DNA of 22,740 nucleotides from a virus: positions 1 through 22,740 of the IMG/VR virus record IMGVR_UViG_3300012209_000384; one strand, 5' to 3'. Positions within the stretch are counted from its first letter, which is position 1, and each line of letters starts with the position of its first letter. Below are positions 3,347-20,719 of the stretch, in pieces. The notes under the pieces were generated by a model. That model was not told where the DNA came from and ran no database searches. It was given only the letters and a program-made list of their open reading frames with translations. The position numbers were made by a program, and so were the translations under genes.

Positions 3347-3877
3347 CTACTGAAGCTGGGTGCAGCGGCCCCAGGAGCCCGGCTGCACGACGGTTCCGGT
3401 GGCGTTGGAGACGTTCTGGGCCCAGGCCAGCGCGACGCTGCCGGAGCTGCCGGCCGTGAAAGCCGAGGTCTCCCGGAAGCACTGGACCAGGGTGACTGAG
3501 TTCCGGGCACAGCCGTACGGGATGCCCGCGCCGTAGCTGTGCACGCCATGGCGCGACGTGATGTTGTCGGCGCTCGCGTCGGAGGACGTCGACCCGGGGC
3601 CGCTGCACTGGCGGAAGCCCGAGGTGCCGGTCGGGACAATCCACGCCACGGAGATATCCGCGGCGGCCAGGCCGGAGAAGGCGACCTCGAACTCGACGAC
3701 GTAGACGCCGCCCGCGACCACCGGGAAGCTCAGGTACGGGTCGGCGGTCTCGGTGGTCACCGAGGGCCGGGTAGTGGCAGCCGGAGTGATGACGAACATC
3801 GGCTCCATGCTGGACAGCTGGCCAGCGGTGATGTCCTGGCCTGCCGTCCAGGTCGGGAACTGGTAAGGGGTTGTCAT
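3347..3877 (-). CDS. Minor tail or fibre-like protein, last gene of the tail operon
   Basis: A 176-residue protein with GAGG before the ATG, starting five bases after the hub-like gene's stop. The N-terminus (MTTPYQFPTWTAGQDITAGQ) is the kind of attachment peptide common at the start of actinophage fibre proteins. The remainder is beta-rich with YLSFPVVAGGVYVVEFEVAF, a pattern compatible with a trimeric jelly-roll head domain. The C-terminal end has a repeated Ser/Thr/Gly character and closes with GSWGRCTQLQ. Its position after the hub-like protein and before the operon terminator suggests a receptor-binding or decoration role. No firm family assignment. Confidence 0.6.
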   Translation of the reverse strand: MTTPYQFPTWTAGQDITAGQLSSMEPMFVITPAATTRPSVTTETADPYLSFPVVAGGVYVVEFEVAFSGLAAADISVAWIVPTGTSGFRQCSGPGSTSSDASADNITSRHGVHSYGAGIPYGCARNSVTLVQCFRETSAFTAGSSGSVALAWAQNVSNATGTVVQPGSWGRCTQLQ

Positions 3878-3882
3878 CTGCC

Positions 3883-6800
3883 TCAGATCCCTGTGGTGGC
3901 CGGGTAGAACAAGCTGACGGCCTCACCTGCATTGTGCGACAGGACGACACCGTTGATGCTCCTGGTGATCTGGAACGTCTGCGGGCTGGTGAGGCCGGTG
4001 ATGCCGTGGACGGTGATCCGCTCGCCGTTCATGATCACGTCGAACGGGAAGTCGCTGGCCGCCACGGTCCACAGCGGGAAGCCGGGGTCGGTCGTGGCCA
4101 CCTGCATCGTGGTGTCGCTGGGGCCGATGCCCACGTCCAGCTGGCTGCCGTCGGTATCGGCCTTGCCGTAGTAGGCGCCGTTGTCGGAGACGGCCGTGAA
4201 GTACGGCAGCGCCGGGACGGCATTCCAGCCGATCGTCCAGGTGTAGATGCCCAGCGTCTCGGTCCAGCCGACCGCCAGCTGCTGGATCAGCTCCGGCGGC
4301 AGCCAGGGCGGCGGGTGGGAGATGGTCAGCAAGTCGCCGACATCCAGCGAGGTGATCGGGCCGAAGACGGCGCCGATCTCGGCGTTGCGGGCCAGGTTGA
4401 CGTTGATCTGGGGGAACCGCGGCTGGTCCACCGACCCGATCGACCGCAGCCAGCCGGCCACGCCAGGCAGCTGCTCGTCGGAGGCCACGTTGACCGTGTA
4501 GGTCTTCGGGTACGGGCCGACGCCGGCCGGCGGCGGGTTTACTGACAGCCGGCCCGTCTGGGTGGATGCAGTAAACGACGAGCCGCCGGTACGAGTGACC
4601 GTGATGCTGTTGGCCAGCAGCTGGTCGTCATCGGTCGGCGCGAGCGGCGCGACCAGCTGGGACTGGGCGTAGTCCAGCGCGCAGACCGGCGTCTGATTGC
4701 ACATGTCGACCCGGGTCCGGTAGCCCAGGCCGAACATCCTGCGCGGCTCGTACAGCTGGCCCAGGTCGGCGTTCTCGCACTCCTGGAGCAGGGACATCAG
4801 GGTGCCCGGCTGCTGCGCGCCCATCAGCGCCGTGTCCTCGTTGCTGCCGGTGACCTCGGTGTCCACGCCTTCCTCGGAGCAGAGCCGCTGGAACCGGTCG
4901 GCAGCCTGCTCGCCCTCGTAGGCTGCTGCAGCGAAGGCCATCTCGCTGATGTCGGTCGTGATGTACTGCACGGCCGGGGCGCCGAGCGAGGTGGTCCGGA
5001 GCAGGCCGCCGGGGTTGACGATGACCTGGGTGACCGTGGAAACTCCCACGCCGGCCACCGAGCCGCTGAACAGCAGCTCGGTGGAGTCCTGGCCGGGCGG
5101 GACGACGCCGAGGACCCAGGTGATGCTGGTGCCGTTCTGCTGAAGCTCGGCCGTGACGATCAGCGGGACGCCGTTGACATGGAACTGCTCGGCGCCCGAG
5201 GTGAAGATGACCGCTCCGGCGGCGGAATAGCCGGTCAAAGTCAGCGTGCCGCCCGTGCCGTAGATGACGTCCAGCTGGTAGATGCTGCCGGTGGTGAACA
5301 TCCTGGCGAGCACGCCGAGGTTGGTGTCCCCGGCCGCCGGGACGTCCAGCAGGAACCGCAGCGTGTTCGCCGACACGACGCCGACCGAGCTGGCGCTGTA
5401 GGTCATCTGGAGCTTGCCGCCGGCCCCGTTCCCGCCGGTACCTCCGCCATTGACGTTAAAGCCCAGGCCGCCGCCGCCACCGCCGCCGCCGCCAGGACCT
5501 GACCCGTTGCCCCCGTGACCGCCCGTGGAGCCTCCGGTTCCGCCCTTGCCCCCGCCGGCCACCGGGGTGGCCCCGACCGACCCGCCAGGCGTCGCGGCGT
5601 TCCGGCCCGCCGGGCCGGCCGATGACGGGCCGGCCGAGCCTCCGCCGCTGGCCGCACCGGAGCCGGTGTCCGTCCCGCCCTTGCCGCCAAGGCGCAGCAC
5701 CTGGCCGACCGAGCCGCTGCCGCCGCCGCCGGACCCGCCGGCCGACCGGGAAGGAACCCCGCCGGGAGTAACCAGCAGCTTCGTTACCCCGTTGTAGGTG
5801 AACTTGGTCTGGGTGCCCAGCGTGCCCAGGTGGTTCGAGGTGCCGCCGACACCGCCCGTGCCGACCTGCCAGGTGTACGGCAGGCCCGGTTCCACCGGGA
5901 TGACGGTCTTGCCGTAGCCGCCGCCGCCGCCGCCGAAGCCGCCCGGGTGCGGCGTGCTCTCCACCGCGGTGCCCACGCCTCCGGCCCCGGGCCCGCCAGG
6001 GCTCCAGCCCTCGACGGTCAGGCTGAACACGCCCGGCGGGATGACCCCGGACCCTGACCCGGACGGGAAGATGACGGTATTGAGCTTGGCCGCGGGCGCG
6101 CCGGCCCCGATGACGCCGTTCCACGACGAGCCGTTCAGCACCGGGATGGCGGCCGACCCCGGGAACGGGCTGGCATTGGACAGGGTCGGCACGCCGGAGA
6201 TCGTCATCGGCTGCACGCCCTGGACAGCGGACGCCAGGCGGGTTGCGGAGGTCCCGTCATCGGCCGGCCAGAAGCCCGCGGGCGCGGCGGCGCCGGTCAG
6301 GTTCTGGTAGTACCGGGTCAGGGCCGTGCCCAGGGTGGCCGCTCCGGACTGGGTCAGGCGCCGGATGATCCCGGCTACGGTGATCTGGGTGAAGACGTCC
6401 TGGCCGGTGGTATCCCACTGCGGCGGCCAGGCCGGCACTTCGCCCCAGAAGCGGTAGTCCAGGGTGCTCATCAGCGGGTCGGTAGGCGCCGACAGCCGCA
6501 GCTGGTTGTTCCTGCCCAGGTCGCCGAAGTACGGGCCGGCCGGATTCCGCGGGCTGAAGCGGCCGTCGCGGTTGTTGATGGTCAGGCCCAAGGCACCGGG
6601 GCTGATCGTCGAGGCCTCGTTCGGCCGGCCGCGGCCGATGGTGATGGCATCGCGCTGGTAGACGAAATCGGTGATGTCGATCCAGGTGCCGCCGACGAAC
6701 AGCTCGACGAAGATGACCAGCGGCTGCAGCGGGAAAACCTGCGGCGGGTTGACCACCTGGCCGCTGGCGATGAAGCCGGGCTTGGGCACCGCGACGCTGC

Positions 6801-6924: not shown

Positions 6925-9900
6925 GCCGGGAGGATTTCTGCGAGGGCGAAGGAGTTCAGCGCCGCGGTGTTAGTGAACCCGACCGATATCGGCGTGCCTG
7001 CGACGGACAAGGCCGCGGCCTCGACGGCGGCCTCGGTGTCGCCTGCAACACCGCCGTCGTACTGGCCGTAGATCGAGGTGGTCCCGTTGGCGGTCAGGAC
7101 CTTCGCCCCGCTGCCGGTGCCGAAGGCGCCTACCACCTGGGAGTTTACCGTTCCCGGGGTGATCGACAGGTTCTGGTTCGAGGTGTTGAAGACGCTCGCC
7201 GTGACGCCGGGCTGCGAGGCGGCCGGAAGTGCATTCGCGAACTGCCGGACGATGATGGAGCAGTCGACGACGGTGGACGGCAGGGCAGTAGCGGTCACCG
7301 TGGCAGCCCCGGACCAGGCGTCCCGGCACCAGATCGCGCAGTAGGGGCCGCCTGAGGCGCTGGATGCTGCTTTCAGCAGCGTCCACGACCCGGACCCGCT
7401 GGTGTCGGTGATCGCCAGCGACGTCTGGCCGATGCCGTTGCCGTTGCCCCAGCTGACAATCGCCACCTGGAGAGCCCCCGCGGTCGGCGTGTAGCTGCCC
7501 GAAGTCACTGCGTTGGTGTTGGAGTGCGCGTAAGCCGCGCCTGCCGTCTCGGTCAGGATCCCGTTGTCAGCGGTGCCAGCCAGGGCGGGCTTCGGCACGG
7601 CGATGGAGCCCGCTGACGTGACCGCGGTATCCCCGGCCAGGACCTGCACGAACATCGCCGACAGGTCCAGGTTGTAGGTGGTGCTCCATAGCGTGGTCCA
7701 GGTCACGCCGTCCGGCGCGGTCTGGAAGAACAGCGTGCCGCCGGACTCCAGGATCTGCCACCAGGCATGATTCGTCGCGTTATAGGCGACTGTCGAGCCG
7801 AAGGTGAGCACGCCCGCCTGGGTGATCTGGGCGGTCATGCTGCCGTTGAAGTACAGGATCTCGATGGCATTGTTGGCGTCGGAGTACAGCTTCAGCGACA
7901 GGACCCCGGTGCCATCGGCGGTGTACGGGCCGAACTTGCCGAAGACGCCGTAGCCGTAGACGCTGTAGGCGCTGGTCGAGACCAGGGACGAGTCGTAGCT
8001 GGGGTCAGTGTTGATCGAGACCTGATCAGCACTGACCGTGACCGTGCCGAAGCTGTTGTCCCACAGCGTGGCCAGGTCGTTGACGGTGAACCCGTCGGCG
8101 AGCGCGTACAGCGGGATCCCGGGCGGCAGGATGGGCAGGAACACCACGACCAGGCCGGCTCCGAAAGCGGTGGCATTCGTGGTCCAGTGCCCGGCATCGG
8201 TGATCGTAGCCCCGGCTCCGGGGCCCGGGTTGGTATCGACAGCGGTGTGCGCCACCGATGAGGTCGCGCCGTCGTTGGTGACGTTGGTGAAGCCGGTGCC
8301 GGATTCGTTCCAGGTGTTGGTGGCCGCAGCGGCCTCCTGGACGAAGGCCCCGATGGCGAACTGGCCCAGGCCGTTCGCGGCTGCGGTGGCCGCGGACATC
8401 GCCGAGAGCGTCCCGGTCGAGGCGCCGGAGGCGAAGGTGCCCGCGATGTCCAGCGGGGCGATCTGGTTGCCCTCGGGCAGCTCCAGCAGGGTCACGGTCA
8501 TCGCGCCCGTGCCGGTCAGCGTGGTGGTGAAGGTCGGCGCGGCGTCGCTGCCCACGGCGGTCTTGGTCCAGACGGCAACGTAAGCATGCGGCGACGTCGG
8601 GGTGTTCTGGGAGGACTGCTGCAAGACCCAGCCGCTGGTGCTGCACGCGATGGCCGTGACGCTGGTGGCCGCCGCGGCCGAGACGACGGCCACCAGCAGG
8701 TCCCCTGCCGCGGTGGTCTGGCCGGTCCCCCACGAGCCCGTGACGCTGCCTGAGGTGCTCCGGACCATGGTCGGGGTACCGAGGGAGGTGACCGGGCTGA
8801 GCACCGTGGCAGAGCCGCTCAGGCCCGGCTTCGGCACGGCGGCGGAGCCGGTCGACGTGGTGTCCGCGCTCGTCCCGGAGCCGACCACGCCGGAGATGGC
8901 GGGCTTCGGGACGGCGATCGAGCCCGAGGTGATGACCGGCGGCACGTTGACGTCGGTGACGAAGCTGGTGCCGGTGGCATCGGAGCCGAAGTCGCCTGCG
9001 TAGACCAGCACCGAGACCGCCGTGGCCGTCATCGAGTAGACGCTCGAATAGATGTTGGTCCAGGTCAGGCCGTCCGGAGCGACATCGAAGTACAGCGTGC
9101 CCAGCGCCTCGCGGATCCGCCACCAGGCGTGCGCGGTCGCGCTGTAGGTGATCGGCGCGCTGGTGACCGTGACGCCGCCGTACACCGTCCGCACGAGCAG
9201 CTGGCCGCCGGCGTAGATGATGGTCGCCGTGTTGCCCGCAGCGTCGACGATCTGGAGCCCGGTCTCAGCCGACGGGGCGATGTACGGCAGGACCTGGGCG
9301 AAGACGTAGCTGCTGACGATGTTGTAGGTGATCGAGCTTTCCAGGCCCGAGTCATAGGCGGTATCAGCCTGGATCGAGCACTGGCTGGCCGCCACCGCAA
9401 CCGTGCCGAAGGTGTGCGACCACAGCGTGGCCAGGTTGTTGCTGTCGAACGAGTCCGTCAGCATGGACAGGGCGTTCGGGTTGGTATTGATGTTGGTGAT
9501 GAAGGCGGTACCGGTGACGGTGCCCGGCGAGAAGACCCCGGCGAAGGCCCCGGCCGTCAGCGCGGTGATTGCCATGGTGTAGGTCACCGACCAGAAGTTC
9601 GTCCAGGTGCTGGCGTCCGGTGCCGTGTCGAAAAAGATCGTCCCGGCGGCCTCGCGGATCCGCCACCAGGCATGATTCGTCGCGTTGTAGGTGACGAACG
9701 GGCCCTGCGTGACCACGCCGGCCTGCTTGATGCTGGCGGTCATGCTGCCGCCGGCGTACTCGAAGATGATCTCGTTGTTGCCGTCGAGGTACAGCTGGAG
9801 CGCCGTCTCGCCATCGGCGTAGAGGTACGGGCTGACCTGGGCGAAAATGGAGCTTCCGGTCAGGTTGTAGGTGCTGGTGGACTCCAGGGCCGAGGAGTAG

Positions 9901-10163
9901 CCGGTATCCGCCTGGATCGAGCATCTCCCCGTCGCGACGCCGACCGTGCCGTAGGAGTTCGCCCACAAGGTGGCCAGGTCGTTGCTGCCGAAGGCGTCGA
10001 TCAGCGTGGCCAGGGCCGAGCTGCCGGACAGGCTGCTGTTCGTGCCGATGCCGGCCAGGCCGGGCTTAGGCACCTGAAGGCCGCCGGTCGCGGTGAAGGC
10101 GCCCGCGGCGGTAACCGAGGCGATGCCTGCCAGGGCAGGCTTGGGTACGGCTACGGACCCGGT
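6760..10163 (-). repeat. Seven dispersed copies of a VPKP linker repeat
   Basis: A ~13-residue unit, consensus (S/T)GS(I/V)AVPKPxLxG, is encoded at 10125-10163, 10050-10088, 8889-8927, 8814-8852 and 7575-7613 in the fibre gene, and at 6835-6873 and 6760-6804 at the start of the hub-like gene. Copies come as close pairs (25-37 residues apart) or singly, always at module boundaries. The coding DNA is also similar (a shared GGCTTnGGnAC core on the + strand), so the copies could act as short homologies for module exchange as well as rigid proline hinges. Confidence 0.8.
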
Positions 10164-12395
10164 AGCCGTGAAGACGTTCCCGGTGTTCGGGTCCGGGCCG
10201 GCCGGGGACCAGATCCGCACGTAGTCGACGGCGAAGACCTCGGCCGGCAGGCTGGCCGCGTTCGGCGTGCCGTAGCCGGCGCTCGGGTCGACCTGGCAGA
10301 CCAGGATGACGTACATCCCGCCCTGGGTGGTGAAGTCCCAGCCGCCGCCAGCCGCGTTCGCGCCCGCCTGGGTGAGCGTGTAGAACAGCGTCCCGTCGAT
10401 GAAGATCTGGATCTCGCCCTCGGTGAGGTCCAGCCGCCAGGTGTGGTAGTTCCCGTCGCCGACATTGAAGCCGCCGGACTCGCCGAGCGGCGTGCCGCCC
10501 GAGGCGTTGGTCCCCCAGATCGTGACGAAGGACTGGTTGATGTTGGGGTCGCCCGACTCCTCCATGTCGATCTCGGCCCAGGTGCCCCCGGTGTACTGGC
10601 TGTTCACGCCCGCGAACCACAGGGCTGGCCAGGCGCCCTGGAACGGGAAGATCTTCGCCCTGATCTCACACGACTGGCCGGCCTGCACCGCGTACTTCGG
10701 CGTGCCGCCGACCGAGGCGCCGCTCGCGGAGGTGTCCAGGCGGGCCGTCGGGTAGTCGCCGGAAGGCACGCCGAGACTGTTCAGCACGCCCAGCTTGACG
10801 ACGAGGTTGGAGGCGCCGTCCTGGAAGACGACCGAGGTGTCATTGACGTACCACTCGATGTGGCCGCCGCCGAAGTTGGAGCCGCCGGTCCCGCTGAGCA
10901 CGTTCCAGATGGAGGAGCTGGGCAGCGTGCCGGCCACGCCGCTGCTGCCGGAGTGGACCACGCCGTTGACGTCGGTCCAGCTGCCCCCGTTGAAATCGTC
11001 GTTCAGGATGTAGTGGCCGCCGCTGGCGCCCGCGGGGACCTGCGCCACCCAGATGCCGGCGTAGGCGCCCGATGCGTCGTTGGACTCGACCAGCGGGGTC
11101 CAGGTCAGGTTGTTCGTGTCAGACAGGCTCATCGAGATGGAGCCGTTCTGGACGAAGTTCGAGTTGACCGAGACGTAGGCGACCAGCAGAACGCCAGCAG
11201 CAGGCTGCGTTCGGAAGATTGCGGTCTGCTGCACATTCGGCGTGGTGAAATCCGCGGCAGTCTGGCCGAGTGCGGTCACGGTCGACTGCACCGAAAGGGT
11301 GCCGGCCGCCAGGATCTCGGCCAGCGCGATGTTGCGCCGGGTATTGGCCGGGGCGGTCGCGCCGTAGGTGGTTGCCGCCCCCTTGGCCGGCGCGGCCGTC
11401 GAGTGGAACGTGCCGTAGCTCGCCAGGTTCGACGAGTCGTAGACGTTCTGGCTGAACGTGGTGCCGGCCGCCGCGGTGTAGGCCACGCCGGGCTGCCACT
11501 CCATCAGCGCACCGCAGATCCGCGAGCCGGTCCCCTTCGGCGTGATGGCCAGGCTCGGGGTCGCCGATGCGCCCGCTGAGTAGTGCTTGGCCGTAGCGCC
11601 GCCAGCCAGGATGGCTGCTATCGACTGGGCGCCGGAGATCGCCTCGACCGTCAGGGCCATGCCGATCTGCGGAACACCCTGGTAATTGCTGCCGCCGACG
11701 GTGCCCAGGACTGCTCCGCTGGCCTGTGCGGTCACCAGCATCTGGTTCGCGGGCGTCGTGATCGTGAGGACTAGGAACCCGGCGTAGAGAGTCGAGTTCT
11801 CGACGCTGGTGATCGTCGGGTTGCCGGTCGACCCGACGTGCTCGGCGAGACCGATACAGGTGGCCTGGAGGCCCCCGACTACCGAGTCGTTGCTCTCGCC
11901 GATCGGCGGGATGACCGCGGTCCAGCTGGCGGGCAGCGCCAGGGTGTGGATGCCGGAGGTGGCCGACGAGCCGTAATCCAGGCCTCCTGCAAACAGCAGC
12001 ACAACCTGGCTGCCGGTGACGCCGCCCGGGAACGTCGGCGTGTAGGTGGAGGAGTTCCCGCCGTTGTTCCCGAACGAGGTAGTCCCGACCGTGGCCGGAG
12101 GGTAGGCGGAGATGGTGACGATCGCCACGCAGGTCCCGCTGAAGGTGACCGTGACCGAGGGCTCGTTCGCCACCGCGGTCTTGGTGAACACGCCGAACGG
12201 GGCATTGGCTGCTGACCTGGCTGTCCAGCCGGCCGGGGTCGAAGCATGCACCACACCCGGGCTGGCCACGCCGCCGTGGGCGCACATGACGAGCAGGTCA
12301 CCCGCCTGGTAGGACGGCGGCGGCTTGACCACCACGGTCGTCGAGGTCGACGCGTGCGGGGTGATCCCGAAGCTGTAGCTCAGCAGGCTGCTCAT
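6921..12395 (-). CDS. Giant modular tail fibre with embedded GH16 glycosidase domain
   Basis: A 1824-residue protein whose ATG overlaps the upstream stop (TGATG). Order: beta-sandwich modules at ~1-110 and ~215-365; a half-length sandwich ~366-461; a GH16 laminarinase-like domain ~462-732; three ConA/LamG-like repeats at ~795-970, ~975-1150 and ~1428-1590, each with LATLW near the start and a HAWW(R/Q)I(R/L)E...GT(I/L)(Y/F)F block; another sandwich ~1205-1420; and a final module ~1611-1824 ending SFALAEILPA, echoing NIALAEILAA at 355-364. GH16 marks: GAWPALWFAG, then WAEIDMEES with E608, D610 and E612/E613, YHTWRLDL and FAVDYVRIW. Five VPKP linkers separate modules. GH16 enzymes cleave beta-1,3/1,4-glucans or galactans; here it would degrade host surface glycan. 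Substrate unknown. Confidence 0.8.
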   Translation of the reverse strand: MSSLLSYSFGITPHASTSTTVVVKPPPSYQAGDLLVMCAHGGVASPGVVHASTPAGWTARSAANAPFGVFTKTAVANEPSVTVTFSGTCVAIVTISAYPPATVGTTSFGNNGGNSSTYTPTFPGGVTGSQVVLLFAGGLDYGSSATSGIHTLALPASWTAVIPPIGESNDSVVGGLQATCIGLAEHVGSTGNPTITSVENSTLYAGFLVLTITTPANQMLVTAQASGAVLGTVGGSNYQGVPQIGMALTVEAISGAQSIAAILAGGATAKHYSAGASATPSLAITPKGTGSRICGALMEWQPGVAYTAAAGTTFSQNVYDSSNLASYGTFHSTAAPAKGAATTYGATAPANTRRNIALAEILAAGTLSVQSTVTALGQTAADFTTPNVQQTAIFRTQPAAGVLLVAYVSVNSNFVQNGSISMSLSDTNNLTWTPLVESNDASGAYAGIWVAQVPAGASGGHYILNDDFNGGSWTDVNGVVHSGSSGVAGTLPSSSIWNVLSGTGGSNFGGGHIEWYVNDTSVVFQDGASNLVVKLGVLNSLGVPSGDYPTARLDTSASGASVGGTPKYAVQAGQSCEIRAKIFPFQGAWPALWFAGVNSQYTGGTWAEIDMEESGDPNINQSFVTIWGTNASGGTPLGESGGFNVGDGNYHTWRLDLTEGEIQIFIDGTLFYTLTQAGANAAGGGWDFTTQGGMYVILVCQVDPSAGYGTPNAASLPAEVFAVDYVRIWSPAGPDPNTGNVFTATGSVAVPKPALAGIASVTAAGAFTATGGLQVPKPGLAGIGTNSSLSGSSALATLIDAFGSNDLATLWANSYGTVGVATGRCSIQADTGYSSALESTSTYNLTGSSIFAQVSPYLYADGETALQLYLDGNNEIIFEYAGGSMTASIKQAGVVTQGPFVTYNATNHAWWRIREAAGTIFFDTAPDASTWTNFWSVTYTMAITALTAGAFAGVFSPGTVTGTAFITNINTNPNALSMLTDSFDSNNLATLWSHTFGTVAVAASQCSIQADTAYDSGLESSITYNIVSSYVFAQVLPYIAPSAETGLQIVDAAGNTATIIYAGGQLLVRTVYGGVTVTSAPITYSATAHAWWRIREALGTLYFDVAPDGLTWTNIYSSVYSMTATAVSVLVYAGDFGSDATGTSFVTDVNVPPVITSGSIAVPKPAISGVVGSGTSADTTSTGSAAVPKPGLSGSATVLSPVTSLGTPTMVRSTSGSVTGSWGTGQTTAAGDLLVAVVSAAAATSVTAIACSTSGWVLQQSSQNTPTSPHAYVAVWTKTAVGSDAAPTFTTTLTGTGAMTVTLLELPEGNQIAPLDIAGTFASGASTGTLSAMSAATAAANGLGQFAIGAFVQEAAAATNTWNESGTGFTNVTNDGATSSVAHTAVDTNPGPGAGATITDAGHWTTNATAFGAGLVVVFLPILPPGIPLYALADGFTVNDLATLWDNSFGTVTVSADQVSINTDPSYDSSLVSTSAYSVYGYGVFGKFGPYTADGTGVLSLKLYSDANNAIEILYFNGSMTAQITQAGVLTFGSTVAYNATNHAWWQILESGGTLFFQTAPDGVTWTTLWSTTYNLDLSAMFVQVLAGDTAVTSAGSIAVPKPALAGTADNGILTETAGAAYAHSNTNAVTSGSYTPTAGALQVAIVSWGNGNGIGQTSLAITDTSGSGSWTLLKAASSASGGPYCAIWCRDAWSGAATVTATALPSTVVDCSIIVRQFANALPAASQPGVTASVFNTSNQNLSITPGTVNSQVVGAFGTGSGAKVLTANGTTSIYGQYDGGVAGDTEAAVEAAALSVAGTPISVGFTNTAALNSFALAEILPA

Positions 12396-13102
12396 CAGCT
12401 GAAGTTGTTCCAGGTCATGGTGAACGCCCCGCCTGAGAGCGTCCCCGGAGTCTGCTGAGTGTGAGCGCCGACAGTGGTGAGGTAGGTGATGTTCGCCGGG
12501 TCGATGGCAGGAGTCATAGAGATATTGCTGAAGGTGAGAGTGCCGTAGTTCGGCAGATTGCTATTCTCGTTCTCGATGATCACCACGGCATCGTTCTGCG
12601 GGTACTGCCAGCCGAGCGTCGCGATGCCGACCGCCTGGACCGGAGTCGAGTTCGTGTAAGTCCAGCTCTGCGTGGCGTTTGACTGAGTGGACACCCAGTA
12701 GTTCCCGGACAGGGCCAGTGTCAGCGTCATCACGTCACCGGCCGATGACGGGTAAAGAGCGGTATTCCAGAACTGGCTCGCCCCGTTCCCGGCAATGAAC
12801 CAGGTCCACGAGGTAAGAGTGTTGTTGTTGCCGGAGTGGCCAGTGTCGTAGAACGAGTAGATGCCGGTCTGGAAGATGTTCCCGATGCCGACCCAGATCG
12901 ATCCCTCAGAGCCAGCCTGGCCGGACAGGGTGGGCACCGTGAAAGTAGCGGTGATAGACGTGACCGGAGCATTCGCCGAATTGCACTGGATGCCGCCCCA
13001 GATCGTGTTATTCGCGGCGTTAGGCACTGGTCCGGATTGATCCATGACAGGACGTACCGGTCCTCGCAGGCGCCTGCGCCGCATGCTCAGGTCTAGTGTC
13101 AT
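12395..13102 (-). CDS. G1-family (eqolisin-like) glutamic peptidase in the tail module
   Basis: A 235-residue protein. After a basic N-terminus (MRRRRLRG at 7-14) the rest follows the G1 peptidase family end to end: NNTIWGG (31-37); SITATFTVPTLS; SIWVGIGNIFQTG with the candidate catalytic glutamine Q78; an aromatic SWTWFIAG segment; SAGDVMTLTLALSG; a TQSWTYTN strand; VVIIENE with candidate catalytic glutamate E177; LPNYGTLTFSNISM; and the C-terminal TLSGGAFTMTW strand. Fungal and bacterial eqolisins use a Gln/Glu dyad and usually work at acid pH. There is no signal peptide; it sits between tape measure and fibre with ATGA and TGATG overlaps, so it is likely a virion component. Possible job: cutting host surface protein, or processing a tail protein. 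A binding-only beta sandwich is the alternative. Confidence 0.7.
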   Translation of the reverse strand: MTLDLSMRRRRLRGPVRPVMDQSGPVPNAANNTIWGGIQCNSANAPVTSITATFTVPTLSGQAGSEGSIWVGIGNIFQTGIYSFYDTGHSGNNNTLTSWTWFIAGNGASQFWNTALYPSSAGDVMTLTLALSGNYWVSTQSNATQSWTYTNSTPVQAVGIATLGWQYPQNDAVVIIENENSNLPNYGTLTFSNISMTPAIDPANITYLTTVGAHTQQTPGTLSGGAFTMTWNNFS

Positions 13103-16100
13103 GGGCCCAGCACCTTGGCCAGTCCGCCGTTCACCCGGATGTGCTCCTTGATCAGCGAGATCAGGTCCCTCATCACGCCAGCGGAGCTGTCCACGCCCAG
13201 CTCGACCTTCAGCACACCGCTGCCCACGGCGCCGAACGCCGGCCCGGCTGCATGAGGCTGGGTGTGCGGGTAGACGTGGCTGCCCTGCGGCAGCCGGACC
13301 AGCTCGCGGCCGTACTCGCCGACCGTGGCCCAGCCGCCGCCGATGCCGCCCGTGCCGTAGCCCACGTAGGTGCCGCCCGACACCAGGCCGGGGATCCTGT
13401 CCGGGCTGCCGTAGCTCGCCGCGATGTACCGCTCGGAGGAGATCAGGTTGTCGACCGGGCTCCAGATGTTGCCGTGCCCCGCCATCATGTAGGCCCGGAA
13501 CGTGGCCGGCATCATCTGCGCGATGCCGCTGGCGCCGCTGGGGTTCTGGGCCCTGGAGTCGCCGCGGGACTCCTTGCTGACCAGCACGCCCATGTCATGA
13601 GCCCACGAGGAGGGCTTACCGGAGATGCCCAGGGACTGCGCGATCCAGGAGCCGACCGTCCCGCCCGGGGCCGCGCCGCCCGCGCCCTTCGGGAACCCGC
13701 CCGGCGGTACGCCGGTCCACAGCAGCGGCATGCCGCGGATCCCCATCAGGATCGGGCCCATCCCGCCGCCCTGGCTGATGACGGTGTTCATGTCCTTGAC
13801 GATGGCCACGTGGCCAGGGTCCGGGCCGCCGCCCATAGAGTGGTAGAACGCCAGGCCGCCAGGCTGCGGGCCGGAGCGCCTGACCCAGGATCCCTGAGCC
13901 TCCGACGTCCGGGGGGCGTGGATGCCGAATCGCGAGTAGACAGCCTGGGTGAATCCCGAGCAGTCGGCGCCTCCGGGGACAGCAGTACCGCCCCACACGT
14001 ACGGGATCTTCCCGATCCAGGACTCGGCGTACTTCACGATCTCGCCGGCACCGCCGCCCAGCTGGCCGCCGGCGATCAGGCTCTTCACGAACTTCATGGC
14101 CTGGCCGACGATGGTCTTCGGGATCCCGATCATCATCTTGGCCAGGTCAGCCGCCGCGGGCGAGCCGATCAGCTTCATCAGGTCATTGCCGAGCGCGGTG
14201 GTGTTGCCGGTCAGCAGCGCGGAGCCGATGCTGACCGCGTCCTTGGCCCAGTTGAACGCGCTCTTGCCCGCGTTGACGATCGCCGAGATCGGGTTCGGGA
14301 TGCCGCCAGAGGCGTACCCGGGCACGCCGACCGCGGAGAAGAACGGGGCCAGGATCTTGGAGTGGGCCGCCGAGACCACCGTCTCGTCCTTCGACACCCG
14401 GGCCAGCACGTCATCAGAGATCGGGCCGGTGCCCCGGGTGATCCTGCCGCCCCCGGCAAGGCCGGGCACGGACTTCAGCTTGGGGCCCCCGATTGCCCCC
14501 ATGACGTCATTCCAGAACCGCACGATACCGCCGTCATAGACGGTCTTGATAAGGAAGTTAACCGGTCCCTTGAAAATCCCTTCTAGCTTGTTCCAGGTGG
14601 TCTTCAGGGTGTTCACCGAAGAGTCAAAGCCGCCCTTTATGGCGCCCAGCGTGCTGGAGATGAAGTTCTTGATGTTATTCCAGGTGCCCTTGACCCCGTT
14701 GTAGATGTCGTTCCAGCCCCTGGAGAATACGCCGGTAACGGTGGAGATGATGTTGCGGAAGCCGCTGATTTCGGCATTCCAGAAGGAAGCGAGCCAGCCC
14801 TTGATCGCATTCCACACGTTCTTGACGGTGCTGAATACGGAGTTCCAGCCGTCCGAGAACAGCTTCTCGACGTTGGAGAGCGTCGACTTGAAGAAGCCGA
14901 AGATGACATTCCAGATCGACTTGAAGAAATTGAGTATATTATTCCAGGTCTTGACGATGAACGCCCAGATGTCATTGTGGTACTTGACGATCAGCCCGGC
15001 CGGGCCGAGCAGCAGCGGCCACCACTGCTTGGCAAAGGACAGGATGTCATTCCAGATCCTGACGACGAAGTTCTTCACTTCATTCCAGGTCTTGACGATG
15101 AAGGCCCAGATCTGGGTGTGGTACTTCACGATGACCGCGGCGAGCAGGAGGGCGGCGGTGGCGATGGCGACGAACGGGTTCGTGTTCATCGCGATGGTCA
15201 GGAGCTTCCAGGCGATGACCGCCCCGGCCAGCACCGGCAGCATCGGCTGCAGCGCGCTGCTCAGCAGCTTGGTGATCCAGGTGACGACCGTGACGATCGC
15301 CGGGGCCAGCGCGATGAAGATCTTCAGGATCGCCGTCAGCACGGCGGTGGCCTGCCCGGTGAGTACCGCCAGGAACTGGGCGAACAACCCGATGATCTTC
15401 GGCAGGACCGGGGCCAGCCCGATGACCAGGGTGTTGACCAGCTTCGCTATCAGCGGGGCTATCTGGCCGACGGCATTGGCCAGCACGAACATGACACCGC
15501 TGTTCTCCAGCACGGTGAAGACCTGGCCCAGGGACTTCGCGAGGACCGTAACGGCCGGGGACAAGGCCACGAAGAGCCTGGCCAGCGTCTGGAGCACGCC
15601 GGAGATGCTGGCCAGGACGGCCCCGGCCAGCTGGGCCAGGATGCCGAAGACGATCTTGATGGCGGGCTCCAGCGCCTTGAAGGCGCCCATGATGGCGACG
15701 AGCACCGGGGCAAGATTCGTGGCCAGGGTGGCGGCGAGCTGGCCGATGATGGGCATCAGGGAGCCGACCAGCTTGACCAGCATGGTCAGGATCTGCATCG
15801 ACGGGCCGATGGCGGGAGCCATGGCGGACAGCATCTTGCCCAGGTCGCGGCCGACCCCTGAGATCGTTGACGCCAGCTGGCCCAGGTAGGGGACAACCGC
15901 CTTCACGATGGTGACCAGCCCCGGCAGGATCCCCCTGACCAGCCCGGTTATCGCATTGACAAAGGGGAGGATGGCCGGGACCGCGGCCCGCATCAGCGGG
16001 ATCAGCTGGGAGAAAACGCCTTCGATGTCCTTGACCACCGGCATGATGACCGGGCCGAGGGTCTTGAACACCCCGGCCAGCTGCGGGCCGATCTGCTTGA

Positions 16101-16491
16101 GGAAACCGCTGATCTGGCTCATCGCGCCGACCACGATGGGCACCAGCGGCTTGACGGTGGCCTGGAGCGTCGAGGTCACCTGCGTGCTCATGCTCTTCGC
16201 AGCCGCCTTGACGACCGGGTTCTTCTCCAGGATGGACGCCGCGAGCTGGCCGACCAGCATGGCGCCCATGCCCGCGCCCGCCACGCCGGCCAGGGCAGGC
16301 ATCGTGGCCAGGGCGGCGGCGCCCGCGGTAACCAGGGCGCCCTGCTTGCCGAACGTGGTCGAGGAAGCGAAGCTCTTAGCGAAGCTGGCGCTGGACTGCT
16401 GCCCAGCCGCCGCAGAGCGCGCCCTGATGGCGTCGTAGGCGCCGGTCGTCGCGTCCTTGACCCGGACGGTGATGTCGACGATGTTCGGGAT
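13099..16491 (-). CDS. Tape measure protein with NlpC/P60 and lytic transglycosylase domains; ATC start proposed
   Basis: 1130 residues from the proposed ATC at 16491 (1067 from the first ordinary ATG at 16302). The extra 63 residues (PNIVDITVRVKDATTGAYDA and on) look like a normal tape-measure N-terminus. Residues ~75-440 are long hydrophobic/amphipathic helices; ~455-665 carry repeated W-rich units (IWNDILSF, IWAFIVKTWNNI). Residues ~818-908 are an NlpC/P60 domain with catalytic C844 (GADCSGF) and H894 (PGHVAIV). Residues ~960-1028 are a transglycosylase SLT domain with E974 (SKESRGD) and SGIAQMMPATF. It sets tail length and may open peptidoglycan during entry. It follows the frameshifted chaperone, as in most siphophages. 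Confidence 0.9.
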   Translation of the reverse strand: MPNIVDITVRVKDATTGAYDAIRARSAAAGQQSSASFAKSFASSTTFGKQGALVTAGAAALATMPALAGVAGAGMGAMLVGQLAASILEKNPVVKAAAKSMSTQVTSTLQATVKPLVPIVVGAMSQISGFLKQIGPQLAGVFKTLGPVIMPVVKDIEGVFSQLIPLMRAAVPAILPFVNAITGLVRGILPGLVTIVKAVVPYLGQLASTISGVGRDLGKMLSAMAPAIGPSMQILTMLVKLVGSLMPIIGQLAATLATNLAPVLVAIMGAFKALEPAIKIVFGILAQLAGAVLASISGVLQTLARLFVALSPAVTVLAKSLGQVFTVLENSGVMFVLANAVGQIAPLIAKLVNTLVIGLAPVLPKIIGLFAQFLAVLTGQATAVLTAILKIFIALAPAIVTVVTWITKLLSSALQPMLPVLAGAVIAWKLLTIAMNTNPFVAIATAALLLAAVIVKYHTQIWAFIVKTWNEVKNFVVRIWNDILSFAKQWWPLLLGPAGLIVKYHNDIWAFIVKTWNNILNFFKSIWNVIFGFFKSTLSNVEKLFSDGWNSVFSTVKNVWNAIKGWLASFWNAEISGFRNIISTVTGVFSRGWNDIYNGVKGTWNNIKNFISSTLGAIKGGFDSSVNTLKTTWNKLEGIFKGPVNFLIKTVYDGGIVRFWNDVMGAIGGPKLKSVPGLAGGGRITRGTGPISDDVLARVSKDETVVSAAHSKILAPFFSAVGVPGYASGGIPNPISAIVNAGKSAFNWAKDAVSIGSALLTGNTTALGNDLMKLIGSPAAADLAKMMIGIPKTIVGQAMKFVKSLIAGGQLGGGAGEIVKYAESWIGKIPYVWGGTAVPGGADCSGFTQAVYSRFGIHAPRTSEAQGSWVRRSGPQPGGLAFYHSMGGGPDPGHVAIVKDMNTVISQGGGMGPILMGIRGMPLLWTGVPPGGFPKGAGGAAPGGTVGSWIAQSLGISGKPSSWAHDMGVLVSKESRGDSRAQNPSGASGIAQMMPATFRAYMMAGHGNIWSPVDNLISSERYIAASYGSPDRIPGLVSGGTYVGYGTGGIGGGWATVGEYGRELVRLPQGSHVYPHTQPHAAGPAFGAVGSGVLKVELGVDSSAGVMRDLISLIKEHIRVNGGLAKVLGP

Positions 16492-16505
16492 TAGATCTCA
16501 CCTCC
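16489..16505 (-). promoter_or_regulatory. Ribosome site and TAATC stop/start overlap of the tape measure gene
   Basis: GGAGGTGAG (16505-16497) is the strongest ribosome site in the neighbourhood. Nine bases after its GGAGG comes TAATC: the chaperone stop TAA (16493-16491) overlaps ATC (16491-16489). The frame behind ATC is open into the tape measure, and the frame just upstream is closed by TGA. A single base change would give the usual TAATG coupling. No ATG, GTG or TTG in this frame occurs before 16302. Confidence 0.7.
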
Positions 16506-17164
16506 CTCATCCCGCCTGGTGCCGAGTTCCTCGATCCTCAGCAGCCTGAGCACCTCCGCTCCCTCGGCCCTGGCCTGGCTCGGCAGGCAGTGGAAGCGGT
16601 CGCAGATGCCGAGGATCGTCTTGGTCTCTATGAGTTCGGCAGGCTCCGTGACAAGCTCGCCAGCTGCTGTGACACCTCCGGGGAAATCCCGCCATTGTTC
16701 GAGCCGCTCAGCAAAGGGGGCGGCACCGAGGCGATCGCGGACATCCAGCCCATCAGGATCTGCATCGTGAAGTCGATGTCCTGGGCGCACAGCCCTGTGT
16801 AGTCGCACGGCTTGCCCGGGTCTTCCGGGTCCTCGGGCCGGTGGTCCGGGCACGGCGTGCCCGGCGTGCCCTGCTTGCGCGACTCACGGCAGACCGCCCA
16901 GGCGATCGGGACCGGCGTGTCGGTGTCGTCATCTTCCAGCAGGTTCCACTCGACGATCGAGCTGGCCAGCAGGTCGAAGACCGAGCCGATATCGCCGGTC
17001 GCCCCGGTGGCCAGCCCGGTCGCCATTATCGACAGCGTGACGAACTCATCGACGGTGACTGACTTGGCGAGGCACTCAAAGCCCTCCATGTCGGGGTCCT
17101 CGAACCTCAGCCGGTACTGCTTGGGCTTACGCCGGTAGCCGGCCTTCGCCTTCTTCGCTGTCAT
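16491..17164 (-). CDS. Tail assembly chaperone GT, -1 frameshift fusion
   Basis: The long chaperone form is made by a -1 shift at the CCCTTTG heptamer (16718-16712). It has 151 residues in the first frame, ending SVPPPL, then 73 residues in the second frame beginning AERLEQWRDFPGG and ending RRDEGGEI, about 224 in all. The second-frame part (ELIETKTILGICDRFHCLPS, LRLLRIEELGTR) has the look of a conserved actinophage T domain and has no start of its own near the overlap. By analogy with lambda G/GT, the minor fusion bridges the tape measure and the tail tube protein during tail assembly and is absent from the mature virion. Confidence 0.85.
16628..17164 (-). CDS. Tail assembly chaperone G (unshifted form)
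   Basis: A 178-residue protein. ATG 17164 is preceded by AGGGAG seven bases upstream and gives a typical MTAKKAKAGYRRKPKQYRLR N-terminus; a GTG at 17224 would add 20 hydrophobic residues without a ribosome site. The core (FEDPDMEGFECLAKSVTVDE, then FVTLSIMATGLATGATGDIG) is the conserved part. It is followed by an acidic stretch (LLEDDDTD) and a Pro/Cys-rich loop (TPGTPCPDHRPEDPEDPGKP) with C95, C105, C120 and C126. The last 27 residues lie beyond the slip site and belong only to this form. It is expected in excess over GT and lies between the tail-tube genes and the tape measure. Confidence 0.85.
   Translation of the reverse strand: MTAKKAKAGYRRKPKQYRLRFEDPDMEGFECLAKSVTVDEFVTLSIMATGLATGATGDIGSVFDLLASSIVEWNLLEDDDTDTPVPIAWAVCRESRKQGTPGTPCPDHRPEDPEDPGKPCDYTGLCAQDIDFTMQILMGWMSAIASVPPPLLSGSNNGGISPEVSQQLASLSRSLPNS
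16712..16718 (-). promoter_or_regulatory. CCCTTTG -1 frameshift heptamer
   Basis: In the G frame the codons are CCC CCT TTG, so the heptamer reads C CCT TTG, a perfect X XXY YYZ. After slipping, both tRNAs re-pair on CCC TTT and the next codon is GCT, which opens the conserved T frame through to 16491. I see no obvious strong stem-loop just downstream; efficiency may rest on the heptamer alone. Confidence 0.85.
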
Positions 17165-17214
17165 GTAGATCTCCCTAGCCAGCCACAGGGCCACGATCAG
17201 GATCTGAGGCCACG

Positions 17215-17616
17215 TCAGCTCCACGTCGGCACGGTGCCGTCGGCCAGCGACCCCGCAGCCGACCAGTTCAGGTCGCCGCCCGCGGCGCGGACCACGGTGT
17301 AATCGGTGTAGAGCACCTCGTTCGGCAGGGTGGCGGCGTTGACCACCATCGACGTGGTCCGGATCACCGCCGACGAGGTGACCTGCCTGAGCACCTTGTG
17401 CGAGCCGGCCGGGTTGAACTGGCCGTTCAGCGTGATGCTGAAGTCGGCCAGCAGGAGCAGCCGCTCGATCGCCGAGGAGTCCAGCCCGGTCACGTCGGTC
17501 ACGGCACGCGGCGTGCCGAACTGCAGGTTGGTGACGTCGTTCCTGATGTCGGTCAGCGACCCGGTGACGTCATCGACGCTCATCGTGGTCCAGGCGATGC
17601 CTGATGCCTTGGCCAT
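17215..17616 (-). CDS. Major tail (tube) protein, paralogue B
   Basis: A 133-residue protein with a strong ribosome site (AAAGGAGG) four to five bases before the ATG. It carries the tail-tube-type motif DVTGL...ERLLLLADFSITLNG (residues ~41-67) and a conserved C-terminal EVLYTDY, DLNW, LADGTVPTW. About 93 of 133 positions match the adjacent upstream gene by eye, so the two are a tandem duplication. It lies directly before the chaperone genes, the usual place of the major tail protein. Either copy could be the main tube subunit; one may be a minor or alternative subunit. Confidence 0.75.
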   Translation of the reverse strand: MAKASGIAWTTMSVDDVTGSLTDIRNDVTNLQFGTPRAVTDVTGLDSSAIERLLLLADFSITLNGQFNPAGSHKVLRQVTSSAVIRTTSMVVNAATLPNEVLYTDYTVVRAAGGDLNWSAAGSLADGTVPTWS

Positions 17617-17652
17617 CGTCCCTCCTTTCCCAGAGCCAGGTCCGGAAGGCCA

Positions 17653-18057
17653 TCAGGCCCAGGTCGGGACGGTGCCGTCCGCCAGCACGCCCGGCGAGGA
17701 CCAGTTCAGGTCGCCGCCCGTGGCGCGGGTGATGGCGTAGTCGGTGTACAGCACCTCGTTGGCCAGCGACACCGAGTTCATGCCGATGGTGGTGGTCCGC
17801 TTCACCGAGGTCGACGGCACGGTCCTGAAGACCAGGTGCGCTCCGACAGAGTTCCACTGGCCGTTCAGCGTGATGCTGAAGTCGGCCAGCAGCAGCAGCC
17901 GCTCGATCGCGGCTTTGTCGATGCCGGTGACGTCGGTGACAGCACGCGGCGTGGCGAACTGGAGGTTGGTCACGTCGTTGCGGATGTCGGTGACGGTGGT
18001 GCCGTCTGACAGGTCCACGTTCAGCGTGGTCCAGGAGACTCCTGTGGCCTTCGCCAT
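17653..18057 (-). CDS. Major tail (tube) protein, paralogue A
   Basis: A 134-residue protein with AAGGGATG upstream of the ATG. It shares about 70 percent of its residues with the next gene; the shared core runs from TDIRNDVTNLQF through RAVTDVTG and AIERLLLLADFSITLNGQ, and differences cluster at residues 12-21 and 70-95. The DVTGI...ERL spacing (ten residues) also occurs in the larger tube-like protein encoded at 18533-19288, which suggests a common fold. A 36-base gap with its own ribosome site separates it from paralogue B. Confidence 0.75.
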   Translation of the reverse strand: MAKATGVSWTTLNVDLSDGTTVTDIRNDVTNLQFATPRAVTDVTGIDKAAIERLLLLADFSITLNGQWNSVGAHLVFRTVPSTSVKRTTTIGMNSVSLANEVLYTDYAITRATGGDLNWSSPGVLADGTVPTWA

Positions 18058-18071
18058 GGTTCACATCCCTT

Positions 18072-18533
18072 CTAGCCGCGCTGGAGCGCGGTCGCGAGCC
18101 GGTCCTGGTGGTTGGCGAACGAGTCGACCCAGTCGGCTGCGTTCAGTTCCTGGGCCGGCGTGCCGCGGGGATTCCCGCGCCAGTCGCCCCCGGTGATGAG
18201 GAAGCGCTCCTCGCGCTCCAGCCGCGTCTTGTGCTCCTCGAAGCACCGCTGGCCAGGCGGGTAGGTGAAGGTGGTCATCCCGTCCGCCTGCTTGCCCTCG
18301 TAGTGCGCGCGGGTACGGTCCTCGCGGGCATAGCTGGCCTGGAACGCCCCGAGCGGGCTGGTCTCGTCGATGACCAGCTGGTGGCCGCCGAGGAACTTCT
18401 CGCAGCGGACTTCCTCGCAGGTCGCCGGGCGCCAGTGGGTGCTGACCGGCGCGGCGATCTGGTAGCTCTTGTAGTTCGCCGCAGGCATGCCGGGCTGGAT
18501 CCGGTTGAGCTGCTGAGCGCCGCGGAGGTCCAC
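18072..18533 (-). CDS. Conserved actinophage tail-region protein, unknown function
   Basis: A 153-residue protein starting at GTG in a TAGTG overlap with the upstream tube-like gene; that overlap decides the start, since the frame stays open far upstream as a non-coding shadow. Motifs: MPAANYKSYQIAAPVSTHWR, ATCEEVRC, GAFQASYARED, TYPPGQRCFEEH, LITGGDWRGNPRG and WVDSFANHQDRLATALQRG. C39-x4-C44 and C97-x3-H101 could bind a metal. The pattern is familiar from tail regions of Streptomyces-type phages, where it has no assigned role. It lies between two tube-protein genes, so a tail-assembly or tube-associated role is likely. Confidence 0.75.
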   Translation of the reverse strand: MDLRGAQQLNRIQPGMPAANYKSYQIAAPVSTHWRPATCEEVRCEKFLGGHQLVIDETSPLGAFQASYAREDRTRAHYEGKQADGMTTFTYPPGQRCFEEHKTRLEREERFLITGGDWRGNPRGTPAQELNAADWVDSFANHQDRLATALQRG

Positions 18534-19288
18534 TAGAACACCACCCCGGCGGCGAGGTTGCGGACCAGGATCACGGCGAATCTGGCGTTGGTGAACGTGC
18601 CGGTGGTGACCACCCGGGTCCAGCGGCGGATCAGCGCGTTGTTTGCGGTGGCCACCCGGACGCCGTAGGGGCACATGGCCGGGGTGACCGCGCCGGTCGC
18701 CAGGCCGGTCACGTCGGCGTAGGAGCCCGGGGTGTCCGCGGTGAAGTCCTGCATCTTGACCGTCACCGAGGTCCCGGAGACGCTGAAGACCTGGACGTAG
18801 AGCTGGGCCCCGAAGCTCGCGCCGGCCGCGCCGCTGTCCATCCCGGCGGACGAGGCCGGGGCCGCGTCGAGCTGGATCCCGGCGGTGTGCTGAGTGCCCC
18901 ACTCCAGCCCGAAGCCGTTGGCCTGAAGCGAGCAGACGAAGGAGAACGACCCGTCGGTGCCGCGGGTGCCGTCGTAGTTCAGCTGCTTGGACACCGCCCC
19001 GGCGGCCTCGTTCCCCACCGCCGTGCCCTGGAAGTAGCATCCGACCACGTCCGCGGCAGGCAGCAGGTACAGCCCGGCAGGCACCCCGGCGCCGTAGGGG
19101 TTGAACCACGATGCGAAGTCGAAGCCGCCATCGCGATGACCGCCGAGCCGCTCGTTGGCGCTGGACTTGATGCCGGTCACGTCGAGCGCGGCCGGGCCGC
19201 CGCCGATCTTGGTGACCGCGCTCACGTCACCGGACAAGTCCAGGCCGGACAGGTAGAAGTTGTCGCCCAGCCCCGCCACTTTGGTCAT
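18533..19288 (-). CDS. Tail-tube-like structural protein
   Basis: A 251-residue protein. ATG 19288 is chosen because it makes an ATGA overlap with the preceding gene and has GGAGG upstream; an in-frame codon at 19312 would add eight unlikely residues. Residues ~34-55 (ALDVTGIKSSANERLGGHRD) share the DVTGI-x5-ERL signature of the two small tube paralogues, followed by WFNP. The rest is beta-rich (SFSFVCSLQANGFGLEWGTQ, LYVQVFSVSGTSVTVKMQDF) and ends RFAVILVRNLAAGVVF. It is familiar as a conserved protein of Streptomyces-type phages, sometimes called major tail protein. Its exact share of the tube cannot be told from sequence. Confidence 0.7.
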   Translation of the reverse strand: MTKVAGLGDNFYLSGLDLSGDVSAVTKIGGGPAALDVTGIKSSANERLGGHRDGGFDFASWFNPYGAGVPAGLYLLPAADVVGCYFQGTAVGNEAAGAVSKQLNYDGTRGTDGSFSFVCSLQANGFGLEWGTQHTAGIQLDAAPASSAGMDSGAAGASFGAQLYVQVFSVSGTSVTVKMQDFTADTPGSYADVTGLATGAVTPAMCPYGVRVATANNALIRRWTRVVTTGTFTNARFAVILVRNLAAGVVF

Positions 19289-19767
19289 GGCAGATCGCCT
19301 CCCTGGATCCACATGTCGTTCACCACGACGGGGATCGTCACCGTCATGACGCGGTTCATCTTGCGGTCGATCTCCACGTAGCCCGCCTGGGCGGCCAGCG
19401 CCGTGCCCTCGGCGCCGAGCAGGTCGATGGCCCGGGTGCCGCCTGCGCCGCCCAGGTCGAAGTCAGCGGAGTAGGCGCCGATCAGCCAGGACACGGCGGA
19501 CAGCACGTTCGGGTCGATCGCGTCGAACGGCTGGCTGATGAAGGACGTGTAGACGCGCTGCATCAGCACCAGCAGGCCCGAGGTGCTGGCCAGGCCCGAG
19601 GACTGCACCGGGGCAATGCGGTCCACCCAGACCGCGGCGGTCAGGCCGTTTCCGGGCGCGGACTTCGGCTCGTGGCCGTTGACCGCATCGAAGTAGCCCG
19701 AGGCCGCAGCGTGGCTGACCATCTTGTCGAAGATGGCGGCGATCGCGGCCTCGTTGAAGTTACTCAC
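19285..19767 (-). CDS. Probable tail terminator / tail completion protein
   Basis: A 160-residue protein with a GTG start in a GTGA overlap. N-terminal helix MSNFNEAAIAAIFDKMVSHA, then DAVNGHEPKSAPGNGLTAAV, a RIAPVQSSGLASTSGLLVLM segment with a following RVYTSF strand, and a C-terminal YVEIDRKMNRVMTVTIPVVV strand pair. The helix-strand arrangement, size and position just before the tube genes fit the tail terminator that caps the tube in siphophages. The assignment rests mainly on gene order and general look, not on a diagnostic motif. Confidence 0.6.
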   Translation of the reverse strand: MSNFNEAAIAAIFDKMVSHAAASGYFDAVNGHEPKSAPGNGLTAAVWVDRIAPVQSSGLASTSGLLVLMQRVYTSFISQPFDAIDPNVLSAVSWLIGAYSADFDLGGAGGTRAIDLLGAEGTALAAQAGYVEIDRKMNRVMTVTIPVVVNDMWIQGGDLP

Positions 19768-20006
19768 CAGTAGTGCAGCTCCTCGGCCAGCCGCTCAAGC
19801 TCCTCGGCGATGAAGGAGCGAGCCAGGAGCGTCATCCCGTTCTTCATGACCTCCAGGGCGTCAGCCTCAGGAGGAGCATCCGGCGTGTCCACGACCTCCT
19901 GTGCTAGCGCCCTGGCGCGTGCCAGCAGGGCGCGCTCGACCGGCACCACCGACGCGTCCAGGTGGGTGCGGCGGCGCTCCCTGCGCTGCGGGTCGGGGAC
20001 CGGCAT
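19764..20006 (-). CDS. Small helical connector-region protein
   Basis: An 80-residue protein starting in a TGATG overlap with the upstream gene and ending in an overlap with the next. It is basic at the N-terminus (PQRRERRRTH) and otherwise helical and acidic (ERALLARARALAQEVVDTPD, IAEELERLAEELHYW). No family recognised. The overlaps on both sides and position between connector and tail terminator genes support a head-tail joining or assembly role. The same frame is open further upstream, but those residues are arginine/proline shadow sequence and are left out. Confidence 0.6.
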   Translation of the reverse strand: MPVPDPQRRERRRTHLDASVVPVERALLARARALAQEVVDTPDAPPEADALEVMKNGMTLLARSFIAEELERLAEELHYW

Positions 20007-20263
20007 CAGCGCTCGATCTTGCCCAGGACGACGCCCTGGCTCAGGTCCAGCGCGCTCTTGCGCTCGACGAGCAGGTGATCGCCGCACGTCGGCACCGCGA
20101 CGCAGGCGATCACCTGCTGCGGGCCGATCTGGTGCATCTGCCAGGACGGCGCCAGCGTGATGGCGTCGTTGGCCACCGGGGCCGGGGCAGGACCGCTGCC
20201 GTTGCCCTCGCTGGCGGCCATCTTGCCCTCGGCCAGGCATTGAAGGCACTTGTATGCGGACAT
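20006..20263 (-). CDS. Small cysteine-containing protein, unknown function
   Basis: An 85-residue protein with GGAG shortly before the ATG, three bases after the preceding stop. Cysteines C6 and C9 (CLQC) and C54 and C60 with H63 (CVAVPTCGDH) are arranged as a possible zinc-binding pair of knuckles. Residues ~12-30 are a Gly/Ala/Pro linker. The C-terminal half is beta-like (HLLVERKSALDLSQGVVLGK). Such small cysteine proteins are common among head-tail genes of actinophages with no known role. The overlaps and ribosome site support it as real. Confidence 0.6.
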   Translation of the reverse strand: MSAYKCLQCLAEGKMAASEGNGSGPAPAPVANDAITLAPSWQMHQIGPQQVIACVAVPTCGDHLLVERKSALDLSQGVVLGKIER

Positions 20264-20266
20264 CGG

Positions 20267-20698: not shown

Positions 20699-20719
20699 CT
20701 AGCCGCACTCCCTTGAAGT

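Follow-up and report, generated by a model that had tools for sequence, protein, structure and literature searches.

What is a protein with the fold of a glutamic peptidase doing among the tail genes of a virus? The question is raised by a gene at positions 12395–13102 of a 22,740-base stretch of DNA, hereafter the window, which is the IMG/VR virus record IMGVR_UViG_3300012209_000384 and likely an incomplete virus genome fragment. The gene lies on the minus strand, a point absent from a preliminary description of the locus; the features of the window discussed below lie on the same strand unless stated otherwise. Its product, P0001 (235 amino acids; the coordinates include the stop codon), was recognized from its open reading frame and translation, from a match to the Pfam family PF01828, and from a structural model and its superposition on known structures. 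What is new is a phage-tail subfamily of the G1 (eqolisin-like) peptidases that is linked to one tail domain; the G1 family itself, a rare group of acid-active enzymes, is already known. Our answer to the question, to which we give about an even chance, is that P0001 is a tail-tip accessory peptidase that would work with tail-borne glycanases on the actinobacterial surface. A sequencing artefact is unlikely, because a second IMG/VR assembly (IMGVR_UViG_3300012351_000144) contains the same gene in DNA that is 99.92% identical to window positions 9648–21102 (11.5 kb).

Profile, predicted fold, and catalytic dyad all assign P0001 to the G1 family. The protein matches the Pfam model Peptidase_A4 (PF01828, MEROPS G1) over residues 34–212 (E-value 1.1e-14, 54.8 bits, curated cut-off 22.3), and the three other phage homologs described below score 55.2–69.9 bits, also over this cut-off. 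A profile built from 82 cellular G1 sequences of actinobacteria and other bacteria covers P0001 end to end (residues 32–233) and places Q78 on the glutamine of the EQTG motif and E177 on the glutamate of SAEVI-E; PHROGs gave no match to P0001. An AlphaFold2 model computed from a 42-sequence alignment that included G1 homologs, so that the evidence from fold and sequence is linked, has a predicted local distance difference test score (pLDDT) of 77.6 and a predicted template modeling score of 0.78. The first 29 residues have no confident structure, and the core domain (residues 35–232, positions 12407–13000), with pLDDT values mostly between 70 and 96, is predicted to form a concanavalin-like beta-sandwich as in scytalidoglutamic peptidase (SGP). 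The top Foldseek match of the model is SGP (2ifw, E-value 8e-10), and VIA-align superposes residues 30–232 on residues 1–206 of 2ifw with a Z-score of 21.9 and a root-mean-square deviation of 2.2 Å over 181 aligned residues, compared with Z-scores of ~15 for neprosin (only ~10% identical in superposition) and the Bacillus proteins 8xai/4hfs, and ~10 for GH16 glucanases. The full-length profile match and the Z-score of 21.9 rule out a chance match to G1.

The two residues of the dyad, Q78 (codon at 12869–12871) and E177 (12572–12574), are invariant in the 42 sequences and align with Q53 and E136 of SGP. An initial pairwise MAFFT alignment with SGP had placed Q78 on Q48, an assignment that was overruled by the deeper alignments. 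The other residues were compared, in SGP numbering, in an alignment of the phage G1 proteins with SGP and 40 cellular homologs; the latter were fetched with a canonical consensus probe, which was used solely for fetching natural sequences, and the sample therefore leans toward canonical members and under-represents odd ones. The cellular set has 27 columns that are identical in at least 39 of 40 sequences, and 14 of these are kept in all four phage proteins, which retain the equivalents of the conserved W39, G41, G55, and W67 as well as those of Q53, G86, A131, and E136. Conservation among the phage proteins is higher around Q78, where 12 of 19 positions are invariant versus 68 of 197 in the core. 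In contrast, none of the four phage proteins retains D43, G44, or E69, and three of them, P0001 included, lack P72. The position of the strictly conserved E69, whose role is described in PMC6154417, is occupied in P0001 by W101 (12800–12802) and in the phage clade by Trp or Phe. E179 (12566–12568), two residues past the catalytic E177, is Glu in all four phage proteins and Pro in all 40 sampled cellular homologs.

The preliminary description had proposed a complete G1 peptidase with both members of the Gln/Glu dyad. The family assignment stands, with a significant profile match and a predicted model that superposes on SGP, and so does the dyad; completeness, however, holds for the fold and the dyad and fails for the second-shell residues D43, G44, E69, and P72 (PMC6154417). 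Since the dyad, W39, W67, and key glycines are kept and these four residues are lost, we classify the P0001 clade, on its alignment, as a divergent eqolisin that is not fully canonical.

The gene is tightly embedded in the tail operon. Its start overlaps the stop codon of the upstream tape measure protein gene (P0002, 13099–16302, with NlpC/P60 and SLT domains) in an ATGA (13099–13102), and its stop overlaps the start of a downstream gene in a TGATG (12393–12397). The latter gene encodes P0004 (6921–12395), an 1824-residue large fibre or minor tail protein that, like the tape measure protein, was assigned by domain and family matches. The first 213 residues of P0004 (11757–12395) form what we call the partner domain, for which we found no clear fold match (best Foldseek E-value 0.02; best Z-score 6.3); residues 576–680 (10356–10670) form a GH16 glucanase-like domain (PF00722, 25.5 bits, cut-off 22). 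The adjoining tail-tip protein, P0003 (3883–6924, 1013 residues, phrog_5313), has its relatives in Streptomyces phages, and its homolog adjoins the tape measure protein in the phages Ignacio and phiSASD1.

The pairing of G1 and partner domain recurs in at least three further viral or virus-like sequences, two IMG/VR contigs and one contig of an actinobacterial metagenome-assembled genome (MAG), with G1 sequences 45–61% identical to P0001. In all four loci the partner domain directly follows the G1 protein, whose stop codon overlaps the partner-domain start; the partner domains of the other three loci are 66, 51, and 43% identical to the first 213 residues of P0004. One of the four, L101 (IMGVR_UViG_3300037187_000017, 44.9 kb), was retrieved by a search with the partner domain and not with G1, and a G1 sequence 61% identical to P0001 was then seen directly upstream of the partner domain, preceded by a GH16 protein and the tape measure protein; here the tail-tip protein begins with the partner domain. 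The second, L104 (IMGVR_UViG_3300014838_000586, 25.2 kb), has a G1 gene at 7989–8687 of that contig (58% identical) and a partner domain that is joined to the final 32 residues of the tail-tip protein; a block of X-domain, G1, and partner domain interrupts the tail-tip sequence between the positions matching P0003 residues 976 and 982. The third, L090, is a 6.3-kb contig of the actinobacterial MAG palsa_505, in which the G1 domain (45% identical) ends a 413-residue protein. GH16 domains occur nearby in three loci, with GH25 and GH26 domains in addition in L104. The fusion of the partner domain to the tail-tip protein in L101 and L104 suggests that it is part of the virion. Because the partner is constant in the four loci and is inserted within the tail-tip gene in L104, G1 and partner domain behave, as judged from the loci compared, as a mobile cassette of tail genes.

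Two observations concern the contigs themselves. The tail-tip gene of L104 (1102–9447 of that contig) is in three reading frames with GH26 and GH25 domains, and the cassette lies near its 3′ end. In L090, the G1 gene adjoins a gene (3412–4308) for a beta-rich protein without a Pfam match, which we tentatively take to be GH12-like in sequence flavour (AAFDIWFSN..EVMIQ).

P0001 also differs from the bulk of G1 proteins in lacking a signal-peptide-like stretch before the core. By hydropathy, which we used for this comparison in place of SignalP, its best 12-residue window scores −0.08 (P0014, 0.01; P0018, −1.24) versus at least 1.6 in 79 of 82 sampled cellular homologs. The placement in a tail operon, the start and stop overlaps, and the absence of a signal peptide are thus borne out as the preliminary description had them, the overlaps having been read directly in the sequence. 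The four phage G1 proteins form a single clade (support 99/96); the tree is rooted on the long branch to SGP, and we draw no conclusion from that root. In the core, P0001 is 22–31% identical to the sampled cellular G1 proteins. The tail context, the missing signal peptide, and the separate clade rule out the possibility that a host contig with a standard secreted G1 had been mistaken for a virus.

A tblastn search of 50,697 phage records with four queries found no G1 relative, and literature on G1 in phages, tail peptidases, and the phi29 appendage yielded no precedent for a G1-type phage tail protein; these results agree with the earlier statement that eqolisins are not known to have a described role in a tail tip. 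A plasmid comparison gave no match to G1, nor did a scan of genome contigs with the single G1 protein. About 1,040 whole-genome scans, in overlapping sets covering the phylum (Actinomycetota), order, and family to which MAG G004 belongs, detected the phage subfamily in no genome other than the MAG that contains L090.

Given its lack of a signal peptide, its coupling to tail genes, and the presence of the partner domain within the tail-tip protein in two loci, P0001 is probably found in the virion, as a tail-tip subunit. Since the dyad and its first shell are kept, we lean toward catalytic activity, with less assurance than for the virion location. The GH16, GH25, and GH26 domains nearby suggest a task shared with glycanases, the opening of the host surface, and we tentatively propose a host-surface protein as the substrate, at somewhat less than even probability.

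Several points weigh against an active tail-tip peptidase. In P0001, D43, G44, E69, and P72 are all replaced or deleted, although each is present in all 40 sampled cellular G1 proteins. E69 is strictly conserved and with W67 helps place Q53 (PMC6154417). A D43A variant retains about 20% activity (cited in PMC6154417). The concanavalin-like fold also serves pure sugar binding. Finally, G1 would seem to be dispensable for tail building, because four tail relatives show none: L003 (with a tape measure protein and a GH16 fibre), L004, and the Streptomyces phages Ignacio and phiSASD1, in which the tail-tip homolog directly follows the tape measure protein. G44 and P72 are moreover treated as required for activity (PMC6154417), and with the loss of the second shell the activity of P0001 cannot be assumed.

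The likeliest of the alternatives is a peptidase that has lost its activity and persists as a lectin-like or protein-binding tail adhesin, in which the sandwich would bind a host glycan or protein and the dyad would no longer cut. The clade-wide loss of D43, G44, and E69, and of P72 in three of four proteins, all of them residues judged essential or important (PMC6154417), speaks for this reading, and many members of the fold family bind carbohydrates, with lectins and a carbohydrate-binding module of a phage Dit protein (5ly8, Z-score 10.7) among the VIA-align matches. However, the equivalents of Q53, E136, W39, W67, G41, and G55 are all kept at just 45–61% identity, the Q78 block is more conserved than the rest of the core, and the acidic E179 near E177 in all four proteins looks like re-tuning and not decay. 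We regard a dead adhesin as unlikely.

Less likely still is a protease that serves tail maturation in the phage itself and would trim the fibre or tail-tip protein, for instance the adjoining partner domain, during assembly. Strict adjacency to the same partner domain, with a start/stop overlap, in four loci would fit such a role, as would the pre-neck appendage protein gp12 of phi29 (MEROPS G2), a case of glutamic-type proteolysis in a phage tail appendage in which a chaperone domain in the spike is self-cleaved, albeit not by a stand-alone G1 fold. Translational coupling, however, would be just as likely between two structural proteins that interact, and L003, a related tail with a GH16 fibre, has no detected G1. 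Known G1 enzymes also act at acid pH (PMC3009609), unlike the cytoplasm in which tails assemble.

The G1 gene has a lower G+C content (59.7%, and 78.8% at third codon positions) than its neighbours (65.8–70.6% and ~92%, respectively), which is in line with its acquisition from elsewhere. That it is merely host-derived cargo, brought in by recombination, without a virion role, and in the tail operon by chance, is very unlikely: this composition and the insertion of the cassette within the L104 tail-tip gene would agree with it, but the four loci hold one clade without a signal peptide, far diverged from cellular G1 proteins, and a passenger is not expected to retain its link to one partner domain.

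We thus return to the tail-tip accessory peptidase. P0001 would belong to a phage-tail-specific G1 subfamily. Lacking a signal peptide, it would be synthesized in the cytoplasm, in coupling with the tape measure protein and the tail protein encoded next, and it is most likely incorporated into the tail tip beside its constant neighbour in all four loci, the ~213-residue partner domain. In that position it may serve as an accessory protease that works alongside the glycanases of the tail (GH16 in this phage; GH16, GH25, and GH26 in L104) and, probably in acid soil, cleaves a protein layer coating the actinobacterial host, clearing the tail's way to its receptor. Chaplins and rodlins form an amyloid coat on Streptomyces aerial hyphae (PMC10117723), and our guess is that proteins of this type are the substrate. 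A broader version of this proposal is doubtful: soil-actinobacterial phages would carry a mobile tail cassette of G1 and partner domain that cuts the host protein layer, the proteolytic counterpart of polysaccharide depolymerases, with E179 standing in for the missing carboxylates of D43 and E69 in a re-tuned active site. The replacement of a lost carboxylate by E179 is our inference.

Compared with the MEROPS G1 eqolisins (SGP, 2ifw/1s2b; PF01828), P0001 shares the profile, the fold, the dyad, and the equivalents of W39, G41, G55, and W67; it differs in the absent signal peptide, the loss of D43, G44, E69, and P72, the extra Glu two residues past E177, and its encoding in a phage tail operon with a tie to a tail domain. 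The secreted bacterial G1 proteins (pepG1 of Alicyclobacillus, PMC3009609; actinobacterial L008–L087 and L095) are its nearest cellular relatives and have the same dyad, whereas they have the complete set of motifs and, in 79 of 82 cases, a hydrophobic signal-like segment, and the phage proteins form their separate clade. Neprosin and SMoV Pro2-Glu (MEROPS G3), the latter a plant-virus glutamic protease of similar fold (PMC6357015), have in common with P0001 a beta-sandwich and a catalytic Glu but use two Glu rather than Gln/Glu (PMC9147577). Phage tail depolymerases of capsules and the RcGTA peptidoglycan peptidase g14 are likewise tail enzymes that open the cell surface (PMC9863714; PMC7296036); these target glycans or peptidoglycan, and neither the literature searched nor the phage records yielded a G1-type enzyme that cuts proteins in a phage tail. 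Known phage tail enzymes mostly cut sugars or peptidoglycan, and finding a conserved glutamic peptidase in the tail module would point to some phages gaining access to the host by proteolysis, for example of the proteinaceous sheaths that surround filamentous actinobacteria. It appears that an enzyme that cuts proteins, or once did so, has been taken up by phages as a component of the tail, and because the entire clade has lost residues thought essential, it offers a natural test of which eqolisin residues are needed beyond Gln/Glu.

Several minor features of the window remain. A short GSIAVPKPALAG-like linker motif is repeated between the domains of the fibre protein P0004 and recurs at the start of the tail-tip protein P0003; L003 has an analogous GSVALGPLA repeat. 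P0003 also contains a long glycine-rich insert (5390–6030, approximately residues 300–510), which is large in L003 too. Upstream in the operon, two tandem and similar tail-protein genes (17215–17616 and 17653–18057) are ~78% identical in DNA. The product of the former falls in a major tail protein family, which suggests a duplication of the major tail protein gene in this phage. The tRNA-Arg(CCT) called by ARAGORN at 17400–17488 lies wholly within the same-strand open reading frame at 17215–17616 and is probably a false positive. On the plus strand, opposite in direction to the tail operon, positions 355–1110 encode a protein with an Rv2525c-like glycoside-hydrolase domain and an endolysin PHROG match.

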